Part shown: positions 703 to 42,820 of the stretch, piece by piece
Numbering within the stretch: the stretch's first letter is position 1
Layout of the letters: every line of letters begins with the position of its first letter
Source of the DNA: a virus
IMG/VR virus record: IMGVR_UViG_3300046534_000753
Span: 1-42,820 of that record
DNA length: 42,820 nt
Strand: one strand, 5' to 3'
Translations under genes and position numbers: made by a program
The notes under the pieces: generated by a model
The model's database searches: none
Told to the model about the DNA's origin: nothing
What the model saw: only the letters and a program-made list of their open reading frames with translations

Positions 703-877
703 CAGACGCCTCCCCCGTCAGATAATCAGACAGCGCCTTGAGGACGGCATATGTTGGGTTGGCGTTCCTGCCGCTGCGGATTGCTGAGACGGTCCCGCGT
801 GACAATCCAGTCTGTGCCGCGACGAAGCCGGGAAGCCGGTCGCGCAGGCCCTCTTTGACTTTAGGCAGTGTTAACAT
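695..877 (-). CDS. Small Cro/CI-type helix-turn-helix regulator
   Basis: This 60-residue protein starts MLTLPKVKEG. Residues about 17-48 (FVAAQTGLSRGTVSAIRSG) form a lambda-repressor-like helix-turn-helix, and there is no oligomerisation domain, as in Cro-type proteins. The start was set at 877 because AGAGGTG lies 4 bases upstream; longer frames run through the divergent promoter. It is transcribed away from the recombination operon and sits next to a perfect 7-bp inverted repeat at 913-939. It therefore probably controls both directions, as Cro/CI proteins do. It heads the leftward early operon. Confidence 0.85.
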   Translation of the reverse strand: MLTLPKVKEGLRDRLPGFVAAQTGLSRGTVSAIRSGRNANPTYAVLKALSDYLTGEASDG

Positions 878-908
878 TTCGCACCTCTGTTTAAACTGTT
901 GCACGTTA

Positions 909-943
909 TGCCTATTGACTTGCGCGCGGCTTGTCAATAGATT
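909..943. promoter_or_regulatory. Interleaved divergent promoters with operator-like inverted repeat
   Basis: TATTGAC (913-919) and GTCAATA (933-939) are perfect inverted repeats. Rightward, TTGACT (915-920), a 17-bp spacer and TAGATT (938-943) resemble a sigma70 promoter for the erf operon. Leftward, TTGACA (complement of 932-937), a 17-bp spacer and TAGGCA (complement of 909-914) resemble a promoter for the regulator. Each half of the palindrome contains one -35 box, so a dimeric repressor bound here would block both directions. Confidence 0.65.
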
Positions 944-998
944 GGTCGTGCGGCGGGTGGAAAACTGGCCGCGACACAACAGGGAATGGAGCAAAGCA

Positions 999-1610
999 AT
1001 GATTGACACGCCAAACGGAATGCCAATAAACGCGGCGATTGAGGCGCTCGTGAAAGCGCAGCAAGAAATGGGCGCGGTCCTCAAGAACGCAAAGAATCCG
1101 CACCTCAAAAGCAAATATGCAGACCTTGGGTCAGTCATTGACGCGACGTTTCCAGCGCTCCACGCCAACGGGTTTGCGGTAATGCAGCCCGCCGGGATGG
1201 ACGATATGGGCCAGTTTGTCGAGACGCATTTTTGCCATATCAGCGGCAAGACATTCAGCAGCCGCATCTATCTTGTCATCGGCAAGAACGATATGCAGGG
1301 CGTTGGCTCGGCTCATACTTACGCGCGCCGCTATGGCCTGCTGGCAATGGCCGGGGTTGCTCCGGAAGACGACGACGGCGAGGCGACAAAGGCACCAAAG
1401 CGCCAAGATGCGCCGCCGCCATTTAACGCCGCCGCCTGCGAAACTCGCTTGCGCCATGAGATGGCAAAGCTGAAGACCAAACAGGCGCGGGCAACGTTTT
1501 GGGAAAACGAAAAGCCAGCCTTTGGCGCAATCAAGGATGCCGACCCCGCCGCCTATGCCACGCTGCGCGAGGATTTGGGCGCGCTTGTCCTTGAGGACGC
1601 AGGCGAATGA
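999..1610 (+). CDS. erf: ERF-family single-strand annealing recombinase
   Basis: This is a 203-residue protein of the ERF superfamily. These proteins coat single-stranded DNA and anneal complementary strands in phage recombination or recombination-dependent replication. Diagnostic parts are the N-terminal segment around residues 20-45 (GAVLKNAKNPHLKSKYADLG), and HTYARRYGLLAMAGV followed by an acidic EDDDGE stretch near 110-130, where ERF proteins carry YARRYAL..L. The C-terminal ~70 residues are a more variable helical region. GGAG lies 7 bases before the chosen ATG. It is the first gene of the rightward operon and is coupled by ATGA to the NinB-like gene. Confidence 0.92.
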   Translation: MIDTPNGMPINAAIEALVKAQQEMGAVLKNAKNPHLKSKYADLGSVIDATFPALHANGFAVMQPAGMDDMGQFVETHFCHISGKTFSSRIYLVIGKNDMQGVGSAHTYARRYGLLAMAGVAPEDDDGEATKAPKRQDAPPPFNAAACETRLRHEMAKLKTKQARATFWENEKPAFGAIKDADPAAYATLREDLGALVLEDAGE

Positions 1611-16541: not shown

Positions 16542-17797
16542 GGCCGCACGCCTTGCTCAATCCGCTTGCGAAGGATTGTCACCTGTTGTTCAATAGGCAT
16601 TGACGAAAACGTAACAATGTCAAAGTTTGGCGACTGCATAAGGCTGTTTAGTCCAGCGCTCATTTGATCCTCCGTCAGGGGCGGCGCAGCGGGCGGCTCT
16701 CCGAGGCCCGCCGCCGGCGGAGGCGTGCCGGACGGGCTGGGTTCTGGATTTCCTTCTTGCCCGTAAAACTCGTTAATCGCATAAATCAATGGATTGGGGA
16801 TTTCGGCGTTAACATCGCCGCGCAAGGTAGCTCCAAGAACTTCTTGATAACCGTCGCGCATGGCCCGCTTAAATTGGATAGTCTCGAGCGTATCGCCAAC
16901 TTGTGCAAAATACATTCCCTTGATGCGGGTGTATTCTTCCGGTGTTGCCGCTGCACCCGTGGCGAGACGCAGAGCGCCTTCAGCCCAAGCGCCGCCTGCG
17001 GATTCATACATCTGCCCCTCAGTGCTTCGCAGCCAGTTACCGCCCAAAACACCAGACGCGAAACGGTCTTGAACATTAGACGGGTCGAACCCTTCTGCTT
17101 CGATCCGATTGATAGCGGGCGCTGTTTGGGATTGCATGTTGTTAAACATGAAAATCCGCCGTTCGCTTTCTGTCATGTCATAGTCAGCGCCCCCCGAATT
17201 GGGATCCAGAAGGCCCGCATCAATGTCCGCTTGGCGCTTGCCGTCCGGCGATTGCGGAGCAGGCCCTGACGCCAGATCACGCGACCTAATCATGGCGTCA
17301 TAGGTGTCCTTCCCTTGCGCCATTAGGTTCTGCATCCCTGCGACATCCGCCACAGGGGGGAGGCCAAATTCTGCAATTCGGGCATTGAAACCCGCCACGT
17401 CGCCGCTTTGAACAAAAGGAACCGCGCCCACAAGGCCTTGGCGGACCTCCTCAGCCATAGCATCCCTTTCGTTCTTGGAAAGCGTGGCCGCGTGGGTTTG
17501 GATCGCCCGCAACTCAGCGGAATCTGCGCGCGAGTTAGCCTGCGTCCGCACATCCATTACCTGCCGCGTGTTTTGCACGCCAAGCGCGGCCTCCGGGCCT
17601 GCAAGCGCCGCATATTGGCCCAATGCCTGCTCGTCGCCAGCCATAACAGCGCCGCCGTTCGTCTGCATGAATTGCTCAAGCGCGTTGTTGCGTCGGTTTT
17701 GATTGGTCAGCCCAGCCGCTGCCGTGCCCTGCTGAATGGCCTGCAAAGCGTTGACGCCTTGGCCCATCATTGGGATGTTCGTGTTCATTGCGGCCAT
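16538..17797 (-). CDS. Ejection (internal virion) protein (419 aa)
   Basis: This 419-residue protein is Gln/Ala/Asn-rich in its first third (MAAMNTNIPMMGQGVNALQA). It is helical in the middle, with a Pro-rich linker near 350-375 (EPSPSGTPPPAAGLG) and a short C-terminal helical domain. Such compositions are common among podovirus DNA-injection proteins. Its ATG shares one base with the stop of the M15-like gene, so the block is translationally coupled. Confidence 0.75.
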   Translation of the reverse strand: MAAMNTNIPMMGQGVNALQAIQQGTAAAGLTNQNRRNNALEQFMQTNGGAVMAGDEQALGQYAALAGPEAALGVQNTRQVMDVRTQANSRADSAELRAIQTHAATLSKNERDAMAEEVRQGLVGAVPFVQSGDVAGFNARIAEFGLPPVADVAGMQNLMAQGKDTYDAMIRSRDLASGPAPQSPDGKRQADIDAGLLDPNSGGADYDMTESERRIFMFNNMQSQTAPAINRIEAEGFDPSNVQDRFASGVLGGNWLRSTEGQMYESAGGAWAEGALRLATGAAATPEEYTRIKGMYFAQVGDTLETIQFKRAMRDGYQEVLGATLRGDVNAEIPNPLIYAINEFYGQEGNPEPSPSGTPPPAAGLGEPPAAPPLTEDQMSAGLNSLMQSPNFDIVTFSSMPIEQQVTILRKRIEQGVRP

Positions 17798-18444
17798 TAT
17801 GCCCTCGCCCTTTGGGGGTTGCCCACGTTAAAGCCCGATGTGTCTAGCGCGTTCATCCGCTGCGACATAAATTCGCGCGGGTCAATCTGCATGGACGCCA
17901 TTTGGGGCCGCTCAAGCGCGTTCTGTGGCGCGCCTGGCCGTTGTTGGGGTTGTTGTTCGCCTGCGGGTCCGGCCAGTGCATTGCCCGCTGGTGGTGAGTA
18001 GGTGCCCTGAGCGCGATTGCCGTCACGCGCACCAGCAAGCTCCACTTGCCACGGCTCCCAATCCATAGGGACCGCCAAGCCAAACCGCTCGGCGTTGGCC
18101 CGCAGCCATTGCGCTTCGGCGCTGCTCGCGTCACGCAACAGCCCGCCATCTGCCCCAGCAAAGTCAACCGCCGTTCCATAATTGTGCTGTGAATTGCCCG
18201 GAGGCGCGACCCATTTGCGCGCGGCCTCTGGCGACCCGTACCTTTCAAGAGCGGCTTCATAAAGCTGGCCCTGCAATTCCGGCGAGCGATACGCCGAGGT
18301 AATCCGCAGAGCGCCAGGGCCAAGATCCTGCTCAGCCGCCGTTAACATCTGCGAAAGGTTATCGCGGAATGACGGATTTAAGCTGGTGAAGCTATCGCCA
18401 CGCGCCGCTGCGCCTCCAACTGCGTATTGGGTCCAGTCGACCAT
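17797..18444 (-). CDS. Virion-associated M15-like peptidoglycan peptidase with a replaced zinc ligand
   Basis: This 215-residue protein has the M15 (VanY/D-Ala-D-Ala carboxypeptidase) core at about 45-136: ITSAYRSPELQGQLY, then SQHNYGTAVDF with zinc ligands His87 and Asp94. The third motif, normally E-P-W-H, reads EPWQVE, with Gln133 in place of the zinc His. The Gln/Pro-rich C-terminal tail resembles neighbouring ejection proteins, so it likely rides in the virion and opens or binds the cell wall during DNA entry. ATG 18444 lies one base after the previous stop. Confidence 0.82.
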   Translation of the reverse strand: MVDWTQYAVGGAAARGDSFTSLNPSFRDNLSQMLTAAEQDLGPGALRITSAYRSPELQGQLYEAALERYGSPEAARKWVAPPGNSQHNYGTAVDFAGADGGLLRDASSAEAQWLRANAERFGLAVPMDWEPWQVELAGARDGNRAQGTYSPPAGNALAGPAGEQQPQQRPGAPQNALERPQMASMQIDPREFMSQRMNALDTSGFNVGNPQRARA

Positions 18445-18445
18445 G

Positions 18446-19156
18446 CTAGTATTCCCAGCCGGACGAGAACGGCATTTGCGTCTGCCTCTCGCCGAGGTTG
18501 CTAATCGCATTCATTGGCGAATTGGACTGTTTGTTGTTTTGGTTCTGGCCGAGGCCCTGCTGATATTGGTAAAGCCCCATGCCGTTTTGAATGGTGCCGC
18601 TGATTGCGTTGCCCACGCCGATTGAGCCAGCCGCCTGCGCGTTGCCCATGTTGCCCAGGGCGTTCGTCACGCCGGAAAGATTATTGGTCTCCGCTGCCGC
18701 TGTCTGCGCCGCTGCGTTCTGCCCGCTAGACGCCAAGCCGCCAAGACGGTCAAGCTGTGAGTCGCGGTCAGACTGAGCAAGCCCCATGCGGTACTGCTCA
18801 AGCGCCTGCATTGCGCGGCCTGAGTTAAGCCCGCCGCCATACGATGCGCCAGCCTCGATTGTGTCCCGGCCCTGCTCAAGCGCGAACTTGGACGCCGGGG
18901 TCATGGATATGCCCTGCCAGCTTTCCGGCTGGTCGCCTAAGCCCATCTCGTATTGCAGCGCGTTATATGCTCGTGACCCGCCTTCGCGGTAAGGCTCCAA
19001 GTCGCCACGGATAATATCGCGCGTCTTGCGGGATTCCTCTAGCTGAGCCTGCGCCGCGCGCTCTTGTGCGTCGGCTGCATCGCTGGCAGCATTAGCCTGA
19101 GAAACGCCGCCAATAATGCTGGCACCGCCCATTACTGCTGAGATTGGATCAGGCAT
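18446..19156 (-). CDS. Ejection protein, P22 gp7/T7 gp14-like (236 aa)
   Basis: This 236-residue protein starts MPDPISAVMGGASIIGGVSQ, a Gly/Ala-rich hydrophobic N-terminus. It continues with a charged coiled coil (AADAQERAAQAQLEESRKTR) and a motif near 50-75 (GDLEPYREGGSRAYNALQYE) found in small DNA-transfer proteins of podoviruses. The C-terminal third is Gln/Asn/Gly-rich. It probably forms the outer-membrane part of the ejection channel. Confidence 0.82.
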   Translation of the reverse strand: MPDPISAVMGGASIIGGVSQANAASDAADAQERAAQAQLEESRKTRDIIRGDLEPYREGGSRAYNALQYEMGLGDQPESWQGISMTPASKFALEQGRDTIEAGASYGGGLNSGRAMQALEQYRMGLAQSDRDSQLDRLGGLASSGQNAAAQTAAAETNNLSGVTNALGNMGNAQAAGSIGVGNAISGTIQNGMGLYQYQQGLGQNQNNKQSNSPMNAISNLGERQTQMPFSSGWEY

Positions 19157-24746: not shown

Positions 24747-25655
24747 TTATGCGCCGGGGGACGCTACCGCGCCGCGCCAGTCAGCCCATCCGGCAACATA
24801 GCGCTCTGTGGCCTTCATCCGGGCGTTCTCGGTGTCAAAGTCGTTGTCCTGGGTAAGCTCCAAGGCGCGACGTTTTTGATTTATGAGACCATCAGGGACG
24901 TCCGTCTTGACGAAGAACGCATCGGCGTCGGTCAGGTAATCCCAAACCACAACACCCTTGGGCAACATGCCCATCGCCTTCATGGCGTTGATGTCGTTGT
25001 TTGCATTGCCGGACTGAAGCGTGGACTTGAGAATGCGCGTGGCCTCAAACTCAAGCGCAGACGGTACAACCAGCATTTGCCCGGTTGCCTGAATGCGAAG
25101 GCCACGGCTATCCTTCAAGCCGCGAATGAGGGTCATCATGTCCTCAAGCGATGCTTCAGACAAGTCAGCCGCCACAGCCAACTCGTTCGACTGGGTGCCG
25201 TCTTTGGTCGGGTGTGCAGTGGAGAAAAGTTCAACGCCATCCCCGCCGGTGTGGCCCGAGTCAAAGCCACGGTTGAGGATGTTTGCAAAGACGTTCTCTT
25301 TCGTCTGTCGCATGGAACGTGCCAGCTTTGCGGCCTTCTTACGGGCCACACTCTCATACTGGTTGTCCTCAATCGCCTCGCGCGTAACAATGGCACCGAG
25401 GCCATAAGTCACGTTGCGAAGCCGCTGGGTGAAGCCCTGTGCGTCGGTGTCATAAGACACTGCGCCGCCCTCAGACTTAACGCCAGCCAAACCGAAGCCC
25501 GTCTCCTCGACATATTCATCATATGCCTTTTCAGAGGACTCCAAGTCAAAGATCATATCGCAGATCAGTTGCTTCTCTTTGTAGGTCGCTCCGAAAAACG
25601 CCTTCACACCAGGCCAAAGGGCTTTTGGGTGTGAACCTGTGCTAATTACTGCCAT
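24747..25655 (-). CDS. Major capsid protein (Mu gpT-like, HK97 fold)
   Basis: This 302-residue protein has the layout of Mu-like major head subunits. It has ALWPGVKAFFGATYKEKQLI at the N-terminus, then YGLGAIVTREAIEDNQYESV, where capsid shells start their E-loop/spine region. The diagnostic ELFSTAHPTKDGTQSNEL (about 141-158) and a C-terminal block ending KATERYVAGWADWRGA follow. It forms the icosahedral shell. The order portal, scaffold, AT-hook protein, decoration and capsid supports this. Confidence 0.9.
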   Translation of the reverse strand: MAVISTGSHPKALWPGVKAFFGATYKEKQLICDMIFDLESSEKAYDEYVEETGFGLAGVKSEGGAVSYDTDAQGFTQRLRNVTYGLGAIVTREAIEDNQYESVARKKAAKLARSMRQTKENVFANILNRGFDSGHTGGDGVELFSTAHPTKDGTQSNELAVAADLSEASLEDMMTLIRGLKDSRGLRIQATGQMLVVPSALEFEATRILKSTLQSGNANNDINAMKAMGMLPKGVVVWDYLTDADAFFVKTDVPDGLINQKRRALELTQDNDFDTENARMKATERYVAGWADWRGAVASPGA

Positions 25656-26306: not shown

Positions 26307-26774
26307 TTACTGAATGCTAGACGCTACGTTATAGTCGCCTTGCTTTGAACCGGACCTATCGTTACCGGCCCGCATGTCTTTCAGTTGTCTATCCAGTTCG
26401 GCGTTTTTGCCTTTCTGGTCATCTTCATAGTGACTTTTCAATTTGCGGCACAGATACGCGAGCTTCTTGGACCCGTCCGCATTGCTTCCCACGACTTGCG
26501 ATACTGCATCGCCAAGGTCAGCTTTATCTGCCTTTACCACAGAACCACCCTCCTTGACAATATCCCAATCGTCAAACTCTGTCATCGCGCGGATGCGGTC
26601 GGGGTTGTCGTTGATCCAGCGATATTTGAATCTGGTAAAGTCCAGCCGGTCTTCGCTCACGCCGAGACGCTTGCCGTGGACGGTCCCGCCCTCACGACGA
26701 CGCCGCTTAGGCTCGCCCTCGTCAACTGCGCTGCGTGGGCGACCTGGGCCGCGCTTTTCGGTTGTATCATTCAT
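26307..26774 (-). CDS. AT-hook-bearing head-block protein (155 aa)
   Basis: This 155-residue protein has EKRGPGRPRS near residues 6-15, an AT-hook-like DNA minor-groove motif, then a basic stretch KRRRREGG. The middle contains FKYRWINDNPDRIRAMTEFD and DDWDIV, a pattern recurring in small proteins near scaffold genes of podoviruses. A charged C-terminal helix follows. The start at 26774 has GAGGG 8 bases upstream. It may link DNA to the shell or assist assembly. Confidence 0.72.
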   Translation of the reverse strand: MNDTTEKRGPGRPRSAVDEGEPKRRRREGGTVHGKRLGVSEDRLDFTRFKYRWINDNPDRIRAMTEFDDWDIVKEGGSVVKADKADLGDAVSQVVGSNADGSKKLAYLCRKLKSHYEDDQKGKNAELDRQLKDMRAGNDRSGSKQGDYNVASSIQ

Positions 26775-26778
26775 GGGT

Positions 26779-27645
26779 TCAGCCCTCGTTATACATTTTG
26801 ACGAAATCTTTTTTGCCTGCGGAGTCGTTCTTGAACAAGCCCTGCTCGACAAAGCGCGAGAACTGCGTCTTCACGTCAGACGGCAATCGGGCATATCCCC
26901 CATCATTGCCAGCGCCGCCCAATGCCATGCCACCGCCCTCAACAGGCGATTGCCGCGCGGCTTGACGTGGTGCCGGTACCGAAGCGTCAGGGAACATGTG
27001 TGGGTAGTATTTGCCCAACTCAGCGCGGGCATAGGCAATTTGCTCTTGCGCGGGCCGCTCCATGATTGCGGGGTTGGCGTTAATCATCGCGGCACCCTGC
27101 GCCTTCAGGGATGGGTCACTTAGCCACTTGCCATCGTCAGACGCCGAGTATTGCGCAATGTAGGGGTCTGGACCCGGCTGCTCGGGCGCTGGTGCCATTT
27201 GCTTTGAAACTGCGTCACGCTGTCGGGAAAGGTCATCATACGCCTTCACATCGCCAGACGCTACGGCTTGCCTTTGGGCCACACCAATTTGCGAAATCCG
27301 GTCCTCGTATTGCTGGCGCTGCATTCCCAAGGCGCGTTCGCTCATCGTCTCGATTTTGCGCAGGCGTTCTTCGCGGGCGGTCAGGTCGGCCTCAGCCTTC
27401 TTGATGCGGTCAGACATAACCCGGAAAGGTTTGGTGTTGCCCAGCCGTTCAAGGTATGCTGTCGGGTCATCAACAAACCCGGCAGGCTTCTCGCCCTTCC
27501 AATCGTCCGCTGACTTCCAGCCTAGCGCGCGGGCCTCGGCTGCGTCGGCCTCGTCAAATGCGGGCGGGGCTTCTGGGGTCTCGTCAACTACGGGCGCGTC
27601 GGCCTCGATTGGTTCGACTGCGGATTCAAGTGCTTCGTCTGTCAT
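26779..27645 (-). CDS. Scaffolding protein
   Basis: This 288-residue protein has a very acidic N-terminus (about 1-50), a helical coiled coil in the middle (DRIKKAEADLTAREERLRKI; RALGMQRQQYEDRISQIG) and a small C-terminal domain ending QGLFKNDSAGKKDFVKMYNEG region with basic residues. This is the usual design of phage scaffolds that organise the procapsid through a basic C-terminal helix. The ATG overlaps the groES stop (ATGA). It lies just upstream of the capsid genes in the transcript. Confidence 0.85.
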   Translation of the reverse strand: MTDEALESAVEPIEADAPVVDETPEAPPAFDEADAAEARALGWKSADDWKGEKPAGFVDDPTAYLERLGNTKPFRVMSDRIKKAEADLTAREERLRKIETMSERALGMQRQQYEDRISQIGVAQRQAVASGDVKAYDDLSRQRDAVSKQMAPAPEQPGPDPYIAQYSASDDGKWLSDPSLKAQGAAMINANPAIMERPAQEQIAYARAELGKYYPHMFPDASVPAPRQAARQSPVEGGGMALGGAGNDGGYARLPSDVKTQFSRFVEQGLFKNDSAGKKDFVKMYNEG

Positions 27646-27962
27646 TGTCCGATTACTCCGATGATTGTTCTGTCTCGCATTAGCCAGTAGGTCTTGCCGT
27701 CTGCGTCGTTCTTCCATTCCTCAGCTTGATATTTCGGGAACAGCACGCGGTCGCCAATCTGGGGCGTGGGCGCATCGTCAGGCCAACCCTCTATGCCTCG
27801 GAAGGCTGCTGGTGACATTGCAACTAGGATGCCCTCACGGCGCGCGAACCCTTCACGGTCGGCGGTGTCTTCGGGGATGAATAGCCCGCCGCTGGTTTTG
27901 TGTTCAACCTCGATGGGTTCAACGACGACAAAGTATTCAAGTGGCTTTAGAGGGAAGGTCAT
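27642..27962 (-). CDS. groES: Phage-encoded co-chaperonin GroES
   Basis: This 106-residue protein aligns with Cpn10/GroES: KPLEYFVVVEPIEVEHKTSG opens the fold, then GLFIPEDTADREGFARREGI forms the mobile-loop region and the strand before it. IGDRVLFPKYQAEEW matches GroES GDxVLFxKY, and the end IIGVIG closes the barrel. No groEL is in the window, so it must pair with the host GroEL, as T4 gp31 does, probably to fold the capsid protein. It lies between portal and scaffold genes with ATGA overlaps on both sides. Confidence 0.92.
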   Translation of the reverse strand: MTFPLKPLEYFVVVEPIEVEHKTSGGLFIPEDTADREGFARREGILVAMSPAAFRGIEGWPDDAPTPQIGDRVLFPKYQAEEWKNDADGKTYWLMRDRTIIGVIGQ

Positions 27963-28315
27963 GGGCGGACCCCCAGATTTCCCATGTAAGCTTCGGCCAA
28001 CAAACTTCGCTGCCTTTCAGCAAGATCTATAAGCTTCTCGGTGGCCGTGGTGTGCTTAGGTGACACGTATTCCGCACCCTCACCCTTGGGAGGTGCCATC
28101 CCGAACGGGCCGTTCTCGTCCAAATCGTCTTCGGCGTCGCGCCTCATGGCATCGGCCCAATCAAGGTGCGCCTCGTCGTATTGCTCGCTGTCCTCCGAAT
28201 CCTCGGCCCATTCGCAGACAAACTCTGCCCCAAACTTTTCGGTTATGGCCTCGATCCAAGCAACCGCTTCAAGCGTTGACATTTCGCCAATGTGGATTTC
28301 GATACTATGCGTCAT
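27959..28315 (-). CDS. Acidic hypothetical protein in the head operon (118 aa)
   Basis: This 118-residue, strongly acidic protein begins MTHSIEIHIGEMSTLEAVAW and has EWAEDSEDSEQYDEAHLDWA near 35-54. The C-terminal helix has TATEKLIDLAERQRSLLAEA. It is joined to the overlapping small gene and groES by ATGA. Acidic small proteins between portal and scaffold may be assembly co-factors, but the family is unknown. Confidence 0.65.
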   Translation of the reverse strand: MTHSIEIHIGEMSTLEAVAWIEAITEKFGAEFVCEWAEDSEDSEQYDEAHLDWADAMRRDAEDDLDENGPFGMAPPKGEGAEYVSPKHTTATEKLIDLAERQRSLLAEAYMGNLGVRP

Positions 28316-28578
28316 TCGGCATTCTCCTGTTCTGTCAGTATTTCCTCAAGCGTCAAAATGTCTTCGGCGCTGGATTCAAAAAAGTCCTCCCATGCCTTCT
28401 GCGCCCGGTGGAAGGCCAGCCGCTCCTCCTCCGATGGGGGGTTGCCCTCCAACCATGCTTGGCACATTAGGCGCTCCTCCCGGACCGCTAGGCGATCCAT
28501 TAGGCCCTTTAGCCGCACCGTCGTTGGGTGGCCCTGCCATTCCTCTAGATTTTCCGATAGCTGTTTCAAGCCGTCCAC
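28312..28578 (-). CDS. Small head-operon protein encoded inside the portal 3' end (88 aa)
   Basis: This 88-residue helical protein starts with GTG 28578, preceded by GGAGG 6 bases upstream, an ideal ribosome site within portal codons. It overlaps the portal gene by 203 bp in another frame. Its sequence (LKQLSENLEEWQGHPTTVRL, then LAVREERLMCQAWLEG and FHRAQKAWEDFFESS) looks like a folded protein, whereas the portal tail opposite is Gly/Pro-rich. It is joined to the next gene by ATGA. Likely an assembly co-factor; family unknown. Confidence 0.75.
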   Translation of the reverse strand: MDGLKQLSENLEEWQGHPTTVRLKGLMDRLAVREERLMCQAWLEGNPPSEEERLAFHRAQKAWEDFFESSAEDILTLEEILTEQENAE

Positions 28579-30568
28579 GTTCTTCCTCCAACATCAATTT
28601 CAATCCCGCAAAGTATGCGTTCTTCTCGGCAGCTTCCGCGTCGGTCAAGTCCTTCACGGTCTTCGCGCGCTCACTTTCTACCTTAGCAAGCGTAAGTTCA
28701 ATATTAGCCCGCGCTTGGACAACCTCGGCTTGCGCCGTGTCCATCTGCATTTCCGTCAGCATTGCCGCTTGTGGGTCCGGCTGTGGAATAAGCTCCTCCA
28801 CGTCATCAATCTGCATGGCCTCAAGCAAGCGCGTCACTGCCGCCGCCTTGTCAACCAGACCGCCTTCGGCAAGCTGCATGAGCAACTGGGCCTTGCCCGC
28901 CTCCTGCATTTTGGTGACGCTGCGCGGGTCGGCAATCGGCTCTATGTCCATGTCGGCAAGGTTGTAGTCTTGCTCGGCGCTAACCTCGTCCATTGCGTCA
29001 TGGAATGCCGCATATCGGTCTTCTTCAAGCGTTTCCGAGTTGATGCGCGCAAGCAACTTGAACTCTTCAGCAAATGCCCGGAACAGCCGCTTGAAAATAG
29101 CGTTACTCATCATCATGCCTTGCTCAATCAGAGCGATGGTGGTTGTCGCGGTCATGTTCTTTGACCCGGTGTCGCCCGTCATGATGTCTTTGACCGATGC
29201 GACTTCTTTGCCCGCCTCAATCATCATGCCAAGCATTTGGAACAGCACAGCGTTAGGGCCGGGATAGGTCATAGGCACAATGGCGGATCGAACATCTTGC
29301 CCCGTTGACCCTACCGTCTTGAACTCGCCCGGACGCATACGCTGACCGCCGCCCTTTAGGCGCAACTCTGACCCAATAAACCCGCCGCCGAGGCTGGCAT
29401 AGTGGCCGCTGTCAAGAAGCATGTTGAATGTTGTGTTGACGGTCTCGGACATATCGCCAAGCAAGAAGCCCAGCCCAGTGCCGTGGACGCCGCCATCCAT
29501 AGACGGCAGGAACTTGAAGTTGACGTAGTATGTGCCGCGGCGAATAGACTTGATCCTGACCGGAACGTCCTCGACTGTGGCCTGCTGCGACGGCTGGCCC
29601 ATCATGTCAAGCATAGGTTGCCCCGCCTGATCCATAACCGGGGCCATGACCTGCTGTTGCTCGGTCACATAGCGCACGTCCTCTGGCTGGAAGTCAGCGA
29701 CCAACCGAACAAGCTGTTGCCCGTCTGCGTGGACCGTGGCGATGTAGGGTTCTGGATATCCGTCGTCGTCAAGGTCAAAGCGCATATGCTGCTCAATAAA
29801 CTCAACCGGATCTTGCGCGTCGTCGGAAACCTTGGAATATTCAAACTGCACAAACGTCTCAGACCGAATGCGGCTTTCGACCTCAAACGGATAGAGCGGG
29901 ATTTCCTCAGAACAACGCGGCGCGCTTCGCATTGATTGCGCTTTGTTGTTCACGATGAATTTGCCGGGATCAACTAGGCGACACTTGGGCCTGCCTTCTT
30001 CCGCGTCATACCACCACTTGCGCTGAGCCTCGCCAACGATGGGCAGGACAACTAGCATTTGATCAGTGCCTTCTTCCCACTCGGGGATGTCGTTGCGCAA
30101 CTGGTCAGACATATGCTCGGAAACGCGCTGCGCCCGTGCCGCCTTCTTGCCGCCCTCGTCATTGCCGCGCACTTTGACTTTGACGATTTCGCCAGGAGGA
30201 ACCAACGCCTGATAAGCCCGCGCGTTGAATTGCAGCGCCGCCGTCGTGACCATTGGATACATGATATTTGCAGAGCCGGGATATGGGTAATTGCGGTCTT
30301 CTTTGACCATCTTCGCCAGCTTTATGCCGCGATCCATCTGCTCTTTCCACTCGGCACCGCTGCCCTTGTCGGCTTCATAGTCACGCAGGACTTGCTGCGA
30401 TATTTCTTTGGCCTGCCCCTCGTCCATGTCCGGCACGAGGTTGCGAGATTGCGTGACGTACTCCACGAACTGCTCAGGCGACACTTGCGGGTCTTCGCCT
30501 TCTAGCGCGTCCGGCTCGTCAAGCATTGGCTGATCCATCAATAGCCCGTCGTTCCTGATCTCGTCCAT
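28376..30568 (-). CDS. Portal protein (P22-like size, 730 aa)
   Basis: This 730-residue protein is the DNA entry ring. It has YPYPGSANIMYPMVTTAALQ and FNARAYQALVPPGEIVKVKV near 100-135, the wing/clip region around FLPSMDGGVHGTGLGFLLGD and GSKNMTATTTIALIEQG at about 465-480, which is the stem-to-crown signature of this portal group. The last ~50 residues are Gly/Pro-rich and overlap the 88-aa gene. Start 30568 has GAGGA 9 bases upstream and overlaps terL by 31 bp; an ATG at 30538 (TGATG junction) is an alternative. Confidence 0.9.
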   Translation of the reverse strand: MDEIRNDGLLMDQPMLDEPDALEGEDPQVSPEQFVEYVTQSRNLVPDMDEGQAKEISQQVLRDYEADKGSGAEWKEQMDRGIKLAKMVKEDRNYPYPGSANIMYPMVTTAALQFNARAYQALVPPGEIVKVKVRGNDEGGKKAARAQRVSEHMSDQLRNDIPEWEEGTDQMLVVLPIVGEAQRKWWYDAEEGRPKCRLVDPGKFIVNNKAQSMRSAPRCSEEIPLYPFEVESRIRSETFVQFEYSKVSDDAQDPVEFIEQHMRFDLDDDGYPEPYIATVHADGQQLVRLVADFQPEDVRYVTEQQQVMAPVMDQAGQPMLDMMGQPSQQATVEDVPVRIKSIRRGTYYVNFKFLPSMDGGVHGTGLGFLLGDMSETVNTTFNMLLDSGHYASLGGGFIGSELRLKGGGQRMRPGEFKTVGSTGQDVRSAIVPMTYPGPNAVLFQMLGMMIEAGKEVASVKDIMTGDTGSKNMTATTTIALIEQGMMMSNAIFKRLFRAFAEEFKLLARINSETLEEDRYAAFHDAMDEVSAEQDYNLADMDIEPIADPRSVTKMQEAGKAQLLMQLAEGGLVDKAAAVTRLLEAMQIDDVEELIPQPDPQAAMLTEMQMDTAQAEVVQARANIELTLAKVESERAKTVKDLTDAEAAEKNAYFAGLKLMLEEERGRLETAIGKSRGMAGPPNDGAAKGPNGSPSGPGGAPNVPSMVGGQPPIGGGAAGLPPGAEGMGGLF

Positions 30569-40609: not shown

Positions 40610-40894
40610 CTATTCCACAGCCTCAGCCCTCACCCGCTTTGCAAATGCGTGTGCCTCGTCGTCAGTGCGGATTATTTCATGGCACCCGCTCCAGCGCCTC
40701 AAAAACGCCACCTGTGGGGCCGTCAGCTTTCCTATGGGCGTCTTGACCTCGACTAGGTAGCTGCGCCCCCCATAGCCCACTACAGCGTCACACGGCAGGT
40801 CCATAGGCTCGACTGTGAGTCCGTATGCTCGGAGAATGGCGAATATCTCAGGCTCGTTGCCGTCTCGCTTGGCTTTGGCGGGGGGTCTGCGCAT
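40610..40894 (-). CDS. VRR-NUC-like PD-(D/E)XK nuclease (94 aa)
   Basis: This 94-residue protein has an N-terminal helix GNEPEIFAILRAYGLTVE. Then comes DLPCDAVVGYGGRSYLVEVK (33-52), the nuclease core with Asp37 and E-V-K, and KLTAPQVAFLRRWSGCHEII. This is the VRR-NUC layout (short, single domain), used to cut branched or structured DNA. A replication/recombination role fits. Its start shares a base with the methyltransferase stop. Confidence 0.82.
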   Translation of the reverse strand: MRRPPAKAKRDGNEPEIFAILRAYGLTVEPMDLPCDAVVGYGGRSYLVEVKTPIGKLTAPQVAFLRRWSGCHEIIRTDDEAHAFAKRVRAEAVE

Positions 40895-41643
40895 TAGAGG
40901 TCTAGCCCTGATTGCTGTGGTGCTTCGTGTGCGCCCTGAATCCGCTTAGACGCCAGCGCAAAATAGTCCGCGTCCATCTCGATACCGATAAACGAGCGGC
41001 CAAGGTTCTTGCACGCAACGCCTGTGGTTCCGCTGCCCATTGTGAAATCCAGCACGGTTTCGCCTGCGTTGGTGTAGGTGCGGATGAGATATTCCATAAG
41101 GGCGACGGGCTTTTGCGTGGGGTGGAGCTTGCCTTTGTCCCTTTTAAACTGCAACACTGTTAATGGGTATCTGTCGCCATTGCTGACTGTTACAGCCCCC
41201 GTCTGCGCGCCGTAGTTCTGGCTTTTGGTCGCACCCTGCTTGCAAGTATAGGGCTTAAAGCCCGTCCTCATTTGCGGGTTGTAAGCTGGCAACCTATCGT
41301 AAAAAACTAAAATGTTTTCATGGTTTTTTAAAGGCATCTTCCTTGCGTTTAGGTGCCCGGTCCCCATTTCCTTTTGCCATATCCACTCCGTTTTCAATGC
41401 CGTAATGTTGGAGGCACCCAATACCTTATCAAAAGGCGATTGAGCCATCAGCACAATAGCACCATTTGGCTTGATGATCCGCCTGAGCTGCGCCCACATC
41501 GGCGCGAACGGGATTACCGTATCCCACTTGCACGCCGTCGTGCCGTAGGGAACATCCGCCAGCACCATATCGACCGACCCATCGGGGATATCCGGCATGG
41601 CTTGCAGGCAATCCGCGTTGATTAGCTGTCTTTGAACGGTCAT
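40894..41643 (-). CDS. DNA methyltransferase, N4-cytosine/N6-adenine type (249 aa)
   Basis: This 249-residue methyltransferase has the catalytic motif in the form DVPY (30-33, ADVPYGTTACKW) and then the SAM-binding motif FTMGSGTTGVA (200-210). The target region lies between and KLHPTQKP at 172-179. Catalytic motif before SAM motif is the beta-type order. It may protect phage DNA from restriction; no partner endonuclease lies nearby. It starts in the stop of the next gene (ATGA). Confidence 0.92.
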   Translation of the reverse strand: MTVQRQLINADCLQAMPDIPDGSVDMVLADVPYGTTACKWDTVIPFAPMWAQLRRIIKPNGAIVLMAQSPFDKVLGASNITALKTEWIWQKEMGTGHLNARKMPLKNHENILVFYDRLPAYNPQMRTGFKPYTCKQGATKSQNYGAQTGAVTVSNGDRYPLTVLQFKRDKGKLHPTQKPVALMEYLIRTYTNAGETVLDFTMGSGTTGVACKNLGRSFIGIEMDADYFALASKRIQGAHEAPQQSGLDL

Positions 41644-41996
41644 AGGTCTAGCCCTTCTTGCGTTGGGGGTGGCGCTGGCTGCGCTTCCGATATGAGCGCC
41701 TGGAGGATTGCGATTAGCCATGCGCGGGCGGGGTTAGCGTTGTGGGTTTCCTCGTAAATCTTACCGTCGGTAGGGTGGCCGACAAGGAAATGCCCATCAT
41801 CGCTGTAATAAGACCACCCCCACCCCGGCAGCACCGCATCATGCAGCGCCTTGGCCTCGTCAATTGAACCTAGAAAAGCGCCTTCTGCAAGTGTCGCATC
41901 TTCCCACCCAAAAGCGCCAACGCCCATATGAAAAGGCAACTCCCCCGCCTCAACCTTTGCCAGCAACTCGATTAGTGCGTCTTTACGTTCAGTCAT
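41640..41996 (-). CDS. Hypothetical phage protein between methyltransferases (118 aa)
   Basis: This 118-residue protein has EAKALHDAVLPGWGWSYYSD, then GHFLVGHPTDGKIYEETHNA and NPARAWLIAILQALIS, a recognisable small alphaproteobacterial phage family. A compact alpha/beta protein; function unknown. ATGA overlaps on both sides tie it to the two methyltransferases. Confidence 0.75.
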   Translation of the reverse strand: MTERKDALIELLAKVEAGELPFHMGVGAFGWEDATLAEGAFLGSIDEAKALHDAVLPGWGWSYYSDDGHFLVGHPTDGKIYEETHNANPARAWLIAILQALISEAQPAPPPTQEGLDL

Positions 41997-42532
41997 AATG
42001 CAATCCGTCCTACAAATTCCGTTGGCCCGTTGGCGTTCTGGTCAAACAGGTACCACGCGCAATTGTCTTTGCCCGTCATTTTGCTGTCAGGTATCCACTT
42101 GACGCGACCGACCGAAACCACCTTCCGCAGCCACGGCATGAAGCGCGCGCTTTGCTTTGTGTGCACCCAGTCTGCATCGAACAACAGCCAAGTAGGGCGC
42201 ATTGACGAAAAATGCTCAATCATCGGGTGCAGTATCTTGCGGTCCCACGGCGGGTTTGTAATTATGCAATCCGCCGATGTCCCAAAGCACGGGTCAAAAT
42301 TTGCATCAAGCGCATCACGGTCAACGATGAAGTCGGCGCGAGGATTTATGTCATAAGCCTCTTGGCAAGACATCCCAACATACTCAAGATGCTTAACTAG
42401 CGCTCCGTCTCCTGCGCACGGCTCAACAAACGCAGTCCCGTATTCAAGGTGCGCCACAAGCGGAATCACCGCTTCAAATGGCGTGGGGTAGAAGTCGCGC
42501 TCTACCCGTTCAAAGTTTGAGCGCTTACCCAT
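41993..42532 (-). CDS. NPPW-type DNA methyltransferase (179 aa)
   Basis: This 179-residue methyltransferase has FVEPCAGDGALVKHLE (35-50) as the SAM site, then DCIITNPPWDRKILHPMIEH (88-107) with NPPW as the catalytic motif, of the gamma-type order (SAM motif first). ERDFYPTP at the start is typical of phage adenine methyltransferases. Start 42532 has AGGGGG 7 bases upstream; TTG 42583 (TTGA junction) is possible. It may add a second layer of DNA protection. Confidence 0.88.
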   Translation of the reverse strand: MGKRSNFERVERDFYPTPFEAVIPLVAHLEYGTAFVEPCAGDGALVKHLEYVGMSCQEAYDINPRADFIVDRDALDANFDPCFGTSADCIITNPPWDRKILHPMIEHFSSMRPTWLLFDADWVHTKQSARFMPWLRKVVSVGRVKWIPDSKMTGKDNCAWYLFDQNANGPTEFVGRIAL

Positions 42533-42579
42533 TTGCAGACCCCCTGCGCAGAATTTCCAGTTTAGTCGCGGCCAGCCCG

Positions 42580-42820
42580 TCAAAGGTCGAACCCGCCTTG
42601 ACGCTCTTCGGACCGCTCGTCATTACCGCGCGCCGGTGCTGTGACTGCAACCGGGCGAGGCGCAGACGTAACGCCAGAAACGGCATCACGCTCAGCGCGG
42701 ATTTCGTCGCGGTGTTCGGGACAGCCCCATTTGTAGCCCTTGTGGGCTTGCGTGCTGTATCGGCCCGGAAGGCGCGTGGCCCAGGTTGTGAATGCGTGGC
42801 ATATGTGGCAGGCATGGCTC
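42580..42820 (-). CDS. Small Cys/His protein spanning the contig junction (3' part)
   Basis: This is the 3' portion of the 80-residue protein whose first codons lie at 129-1. The frame runs from the right edge to the TGA at 42580-42582. Its own first base is missing in this copy because the terminal repeat stops one codon short. The frame is preferred to the alternative 96-codon frame here because it has coupling, a ribosome site and Cys pairs. Confidence 0.75.
   Translation of the reverse strand, partial: SHACHICHAFTTWATRLPGRYSTQAHKGYKWGCPEHRDEIRAERDAVSGVTSAPRPVAVTAPARGNDERSEERQGGFDL
42694..42820. repeat. Right copy of 127-bp terminal direct repeat
   Basis: Identical to 1-127 over all 127 bases. 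The genome is therefore circular as assembled, with about 42,693 bp of unique sequence, and this copy is redundant. Confidence 0.95.

Follow-up and report, generated by a model that had tools for sequence, protein, structure and literature searches.

The window analysed here is the whole of a 42,820-base stretch, positions 1 to 42,820 of IMG/VR virus record IMGVR_UViG_3300046534_000753. It carries a GroES (Cpn10) gene among phage head genes, in the order terminase, portal, 88-aa protein, 118-aa ORF, groES, scaffold, 155-aa protein, 206-aa protein and coat. From portal to coat, the features are as follows:

28376..30568 (-), portal protein, 730 aa (phrog_1216, E 2.2e-24; PF23899 SU10_portal, 30.3 bits, at the cut-off)
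28312..28578 (-), conserved 88-aa protein on the portal side of groES, its frame overlapping the portal 3' end
27959..28315 (-), 118-aa ORF found in the window only, with ATGA overlaps on both sides
27642..27962 (-), phage Cpn10/GroES gene, 106 aa (Pfam Cpn10, phrog_3188, AlphaFold and Foldseek)
26779..27645 (-), probable scaffold protein, 288 aa, acidic, its ATG overlapping the groES stop
26307..26774 (-), 155-aa basic head-module protein, with a 155-aa orthologue in the close relative L002
25668..26288 (-), 206-aa protein encoded just ahead of the coat gene (phrog_37556, function unknown; E 1.3e-13)
24747..25655 (-), major capsid (coat) protein, 302 aa, 32.9 kDa, HK97 fold, Mu gpT-like

Elsewhere in the window we observed genes for an Erf-like annealing protein (738-1610, plus strand), a DNA-ejection protein (18446-19156), a VanY-type peptidase (17797-18510) and two DNA methyltransferases (40894-41721 and 41993-42583), the last four on the minus strand.

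The groES frame (27642-27962) is coding on the minus strand, a point absent from the earlier note on this DNA; stops interrupt the plus strand. Its product scored 46.5 bits against PF00166 (Cpn10; E 3.8e-12, cut-off 21.1), with residues 5-104 aligned to profile positions 2-93 of 93, and matched phrog_3188 ('co-chaperonin GroES') in PHROG, confirming the full-length Cpn10-like protein described in an earlier note on this DNA. An AlphaFold (AF2) monomer model, built from an alignment of 55 family sequences that included no rows from the phages collection, predicted a beta-barrel with a mobile loop at about residues 17-44 (pLDDT 84). Residues 22-28 and 32-38 fell below 50, both within the mobile loop, as would be expected of a flexible loop. 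When the model was searched with Foldseek, the top matches were solved Cpn10/GroES structures (best E 7e-7, probability 1.00) rather than a non-chaperonin fold; the T4 gp31 structure (1g31) was also matched (E 1.6e-4), which places both references proposed for comparison in the earlier note among the structural matches. Compared with its 86% identical counterpart in L002, the gene gave a dN of 0.082 and a dS of 1.24 (dN/dS 0.066), and it is under strong purifying selection. A chance ORF was ruled out by the curated family score, the fold and this dN/dS ratio. Four-nucleotide ATGA overlaps at both ends, joining the stop of the preceding ORF to the groES start and the groES stop to the scaffold start, suggest translational coupling. 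A profile search of the whole record found no Cpn60/GroEL (PF00118), in agreement with the earlier claim that the gene has no groEL partner.

The placement of groES inside a head-assembly operon also held, with head genes on both sides and the arrangement conserved in relatives. Its reported position between portal and scaffold was correct, with the qualification that two small ORFs (88 and 118 aa) intervene on the portal side. The 88-aa protein is 66% identical in L002 and has homologues in L195, L094, L017 and others (~20 loci), which sit upstream of groES in the loci checked; in the window and L002 its frame shares about 200 nt with the portal 3' end. No homologue of the 118-aa ORF was found in the fetched loci or the phages collection, and in L002, which has no such ORF there, the 88-aa gene joins groES directly by an ATGA-type overlap. 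The gene that follows groES (pI 4.8) matched no Pfam or PHROG family and is a probable scaffold by position, size and acidic composition; its orthologue starts close to the end of groES in 121 of 128 loci. Named phages carry a similar-sized gene at the same position as the 155-aa head-module gene, and the 206-aa protein, with a 206-aa orthologue in L002, is a possible decoration protein. The coat protein matched PF25209 (E 1.9e-17), PF10124 (E 2.1e-14) and phrog_371. By sequence it matched none of the solved structures, and its likeness to T5, HK97 and other capsids came from a fold search with its AF2 model. Its small size, remarked upon previously, was measured at 302 aa and is characteristic of the family (about 33 kDa throughout, ORF 301-324 aa), while the portal and terminase of the window are 80 kDa and 57 kDa.

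Gene order in relatives shows groES to be a constant component of a single head module (portal, small ORF, GroES, scaffold, 155-aa protein, 206-aa protein, coat) rather than a stray host gene. A search of viral contigs with the coat protein gave 54 usable loci, which either contained a Cpn10 or extended 3.5 kb or more beyond the coat on its upstream side, and 26 that were too short to judge. All 54 have a Cpn10 on the coat strand, 1.8-3.0 kb upstream. The same search of 84,980 bacterial and archaeal species genomes returned 22 loci, mostly in Alphaproteobacteria (Leisingera, Gluconacetobacter, Bradyrhizobium, Zavarzinia, Sphingopyxis), all 22 with the order portal, Cpn10, scaffold, coat. Both sets were selected independently of groES. 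A search that started from groES found coat and scaffold in all loci with enough DNA (70/70), which is weaker evidence of linkage because that set was chosen by loop motif and similarity. In addition, groES was carried by each of the 18 named phage records whose coat is at least 38% identical. Because the locus sets overlap in ancestry, these counts refer to loci and not to independent events. Linkage of groES, scaffold and coat was seen in podo-, sipho- and myovirus-labelled relatives; by tblastn, genes similar to groES turned up in no more than a few dozen of 50,697 phage records. A role in head assembly is favoured by the conservation of groES within this module in the 18 named phages, in about 100 viral contigs and in the 22 prophage loci.

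Each of the 28 searched records of this head-module type contained one Cpn10 and no Cpn60, implying that host GroEL is needed. Among the prophage-bearing genomes searched, a strong second Cpn10 with scores typical of cellular GroES was present in 13 of 13. We took this copy to be that of the host, which means that the phage retains a lid of its own even though one is available.

The module has limits. No Cpn10 was found in the Mu-like prophages BK070158, Mushu and MK388859, whose coats are far more distant members of that broad family, implying that a private lid is not an intrinsic requirement of this coat fold. Archaeal virus vir526 and phage MW202601 have coats about 30% identical and carry Cpn10 elsewhere in the genome; in vir526 (BK063670, assigned to Methanomicrobiales) the gene lies at 94-450, upstream of terminase, has a cellular-length loop and is possibly a separate acquisition. 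Two relatives retain the position of the gene with a strongly altered Cpn10: Alcaligenes phage QDWS535 (L162), which has no GG motif in the mobile loop, and ct7L0027 (L163), which sits on a very long branch.

Loop lengths from regular expressions were ambiguous, and the mobile-loop segment was instead counted from the alignment, from the GG motif to the glycine of the next strand, together with the gap in an hhalign comparison. The segment spans 17-19 residues in 101 of 103 non-redundant phage copies (17 in the window copy) and in none of 22 cellular sequences, all of which have 13. The two exceptions are one copy with 16 residues and Bacteroides phage DAC16 with 13, the latter having its own GroEL and falling outside the groES head-module type. 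The loop of the phage proteins is thus 4 residues longer, and hhalign against E. coli GroES showed the same 4-residue gap. The GroEL-binding tripeptide of the window copy is LFI (residues 27-29), and at least two of the three residues are hydrophobic in 101 of 102 non-redundant phage copies. The roof segment has 21-29 residues in most phage copies versus 24 in most cellular ones, and thus shows no deletion. In a tree built without the insert columns, one branch split phage from cellular copies (SH-aLRT 99), although the inner order was poorly resolved on only 103 columns. This single branch ruled out recent host capture of the gene. An Acinetobacter 'phage' groS match (H14) was rejected as a bacterial groES-groEL contig within the phage collection and counted as cellular; H15 bears the same annotation. 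The record CAKLQH020000021.1 (L008), labelled Acinetobacter phage MD-2021a, was bacterial chromosome over the stretch viewed, which carries glpK, glpD, groES-groEL and acrB.

The window protein thus resembles cellular GroES (PF00166) in fold, architecture, roof length and hydrophobic tripeptide (hhalign 98% with E. coli GroES), and differs from it in the longer mobile-loop segment and the separate branch. Phage-encoded lids without a GroEL of their own include T4 gp31, with which RB49 CocO is grouped. The earlier note had cited gp31 as an example of co-chaperonins that remodel the host GroEL cage for large capsid proteins, a logic that was not supported here. Although gp31 has the same fold as the window protein, that fold does not distinguish the window protein from GroES, and profile comparison detected no sequence kinship (hhalign probability 1.2%), which ruled out orthology. 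The gp31 mobile loop is longer than that of GroES (22 versus 16 residues) and the roof loops are missing; both features enlarge the cage for the 56-kDa T4 coat (PMC6318259). By comparison, the roof segment is present here and the coat is 33 kDa, so cage enlargement as in T4 does not fit. The extra loop residues also differ in place, following the tripeptide in the window family, while in gp31 three precede it (in a short, weak alignment). Unlike the window groES, T4 gene 31 has no head-structure genes among its listed neighbours.

Closer counterparts are the phrog_3188 GroES proteins of pelagiphage HTVC023P, Roseobacter phages CRP-901/902 and Caulobacter phage RW, which belong to the same family and, as in the window, are encoded ahead of scaffold and coat with no GroEL (29-31% identity between the window copy and those of CRP-901/902). 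GroES is one of 13 core genes in HTVC023P-type pelagiphages (PMC9599517), and a genome map of the CRP-901 type carries a GroES label (PMC10149686). Other phages combine chaperonin parts differently from the window, which carries a lid only: DAC16 has a Cpn10 and Cpn60 pair, and EL, OBP and AR9 carry GroEL-type chaperonins that work without a co-chaperonin (PMC9598537).

We consider it likely that the gene encodes a phage-specific GroES that would act as a heptameric lid on host GroEL and help to fold head proteins, the 33-kDa coat being the likeliest client. By analogy with cellular GroES, a heptamer that binds the GroEL apical domains through its loops and seals the cage, the phage protein would form a seven-membered lid, attach its loops to the apical domains of the host GroEL and enclose a head protein. 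That protein is probably the coat, since it is scaffold and coat, not portal, to which groES remains linked. The capsid protein of phage lambda is folded by the host GroEL-GroES complex (PMC9598537), so a coat of ordinary size can be a client. The longer loop may shift the affinity or height of the lid on GroEL rather than adapt the cage to an oversized coat, and could allow the phage lid to compete with host GroES. A broader proposal, to which we give slightly less than even weight, is that, in a large set of phages and prophages, host GroEL can fold the small HK97-type coat only with a private lid of this longer-looped kind. Such a lid would serve client specificity or lid affinity, not cage enlargement, and would be an obligate, co-inherited part of the head module. 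A point against a private lid is that a 32.9-kDa coat is small enough for the normal GroEL-GroES cage.

The main client of a lid for host GroEL could instead be the portal, terminase or scaffold. These include the large, harder proteins (portal and terminase), groES usually adjoins portal and scaffold, and Cpn10 distances track those of the portal almost as well as those of the coat (Spearman correlation of distance trees 0.58 and 0.61, respectively), a difference that makes co-evolution too weak to choose the client. We nevertheless regard this as unlikely: in CRP-901/902 the portal lies 9-10 kb off while groES still abuts the scaffold and the coat remains nearby, and in seven more contigs no portal was detected in more than 5 kb upstream, with groES again in position beside scaffold and coat. 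Moreover, an 80-kDa chain exceeds the usual limit of the GroEL-GroES cage. Less probable still is a host-derived auxiliary gene that tops up GroES under infection load and has no dedicated client. Captured host genes do occur in phages, and the sequence is plainly GroES-like; however, the phage copies form one group apart from all cellular GroES sampled, the loop insert is confined to phage copies, and auxiliary genes are typically patchy in distribution, whereas the position of this gene is fixed, with no loss in the sets examined. Reuse of a protein that has ceased to work with GroEL, for instance as a procapsid structural or assembly part or to inhibit the host chaperonin, would accord with the lack of GroEL in the record, the abutting scaffold gene, the altered mobile loop and the degenerate loops of a few relatives (L162, L163), but is very improbable given that nearly all copies keep the GroEL-binding tripeptide and that the Cpn10 fold is retained.

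Textbooks explain a phage-borne GroES by the oversized coat of T4. Here, a co-chaperonin with its own loop signature was never seen missing from its module and yet stands alongside a 33-kDa coat, in viruses and prophages whose hosts span Alphaproteobacteria (including Pelagibacter), cyanobacteria and Alcaligenes. Phage GroES itself is already known, while its universal linkage to the coat gene and its loop signature seem undescribed: we found no account of either in the open-access literature. The portions of PMC9599517 and PMC10149686 considered here list the gene and do not discuss coat linkage, loop signature or mechanism, and a history of the podovirus head module (PMC10386132) mentions neither GroES nor chaperones. 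This pairing makes the role of a private lid beyond cage enlargement directly testable, with cultured systems at hand in Caulobacter phage RW and the Gluconacetobacter prophages, and L162 and L163 are useful natural variants with regard to GroEL binding.
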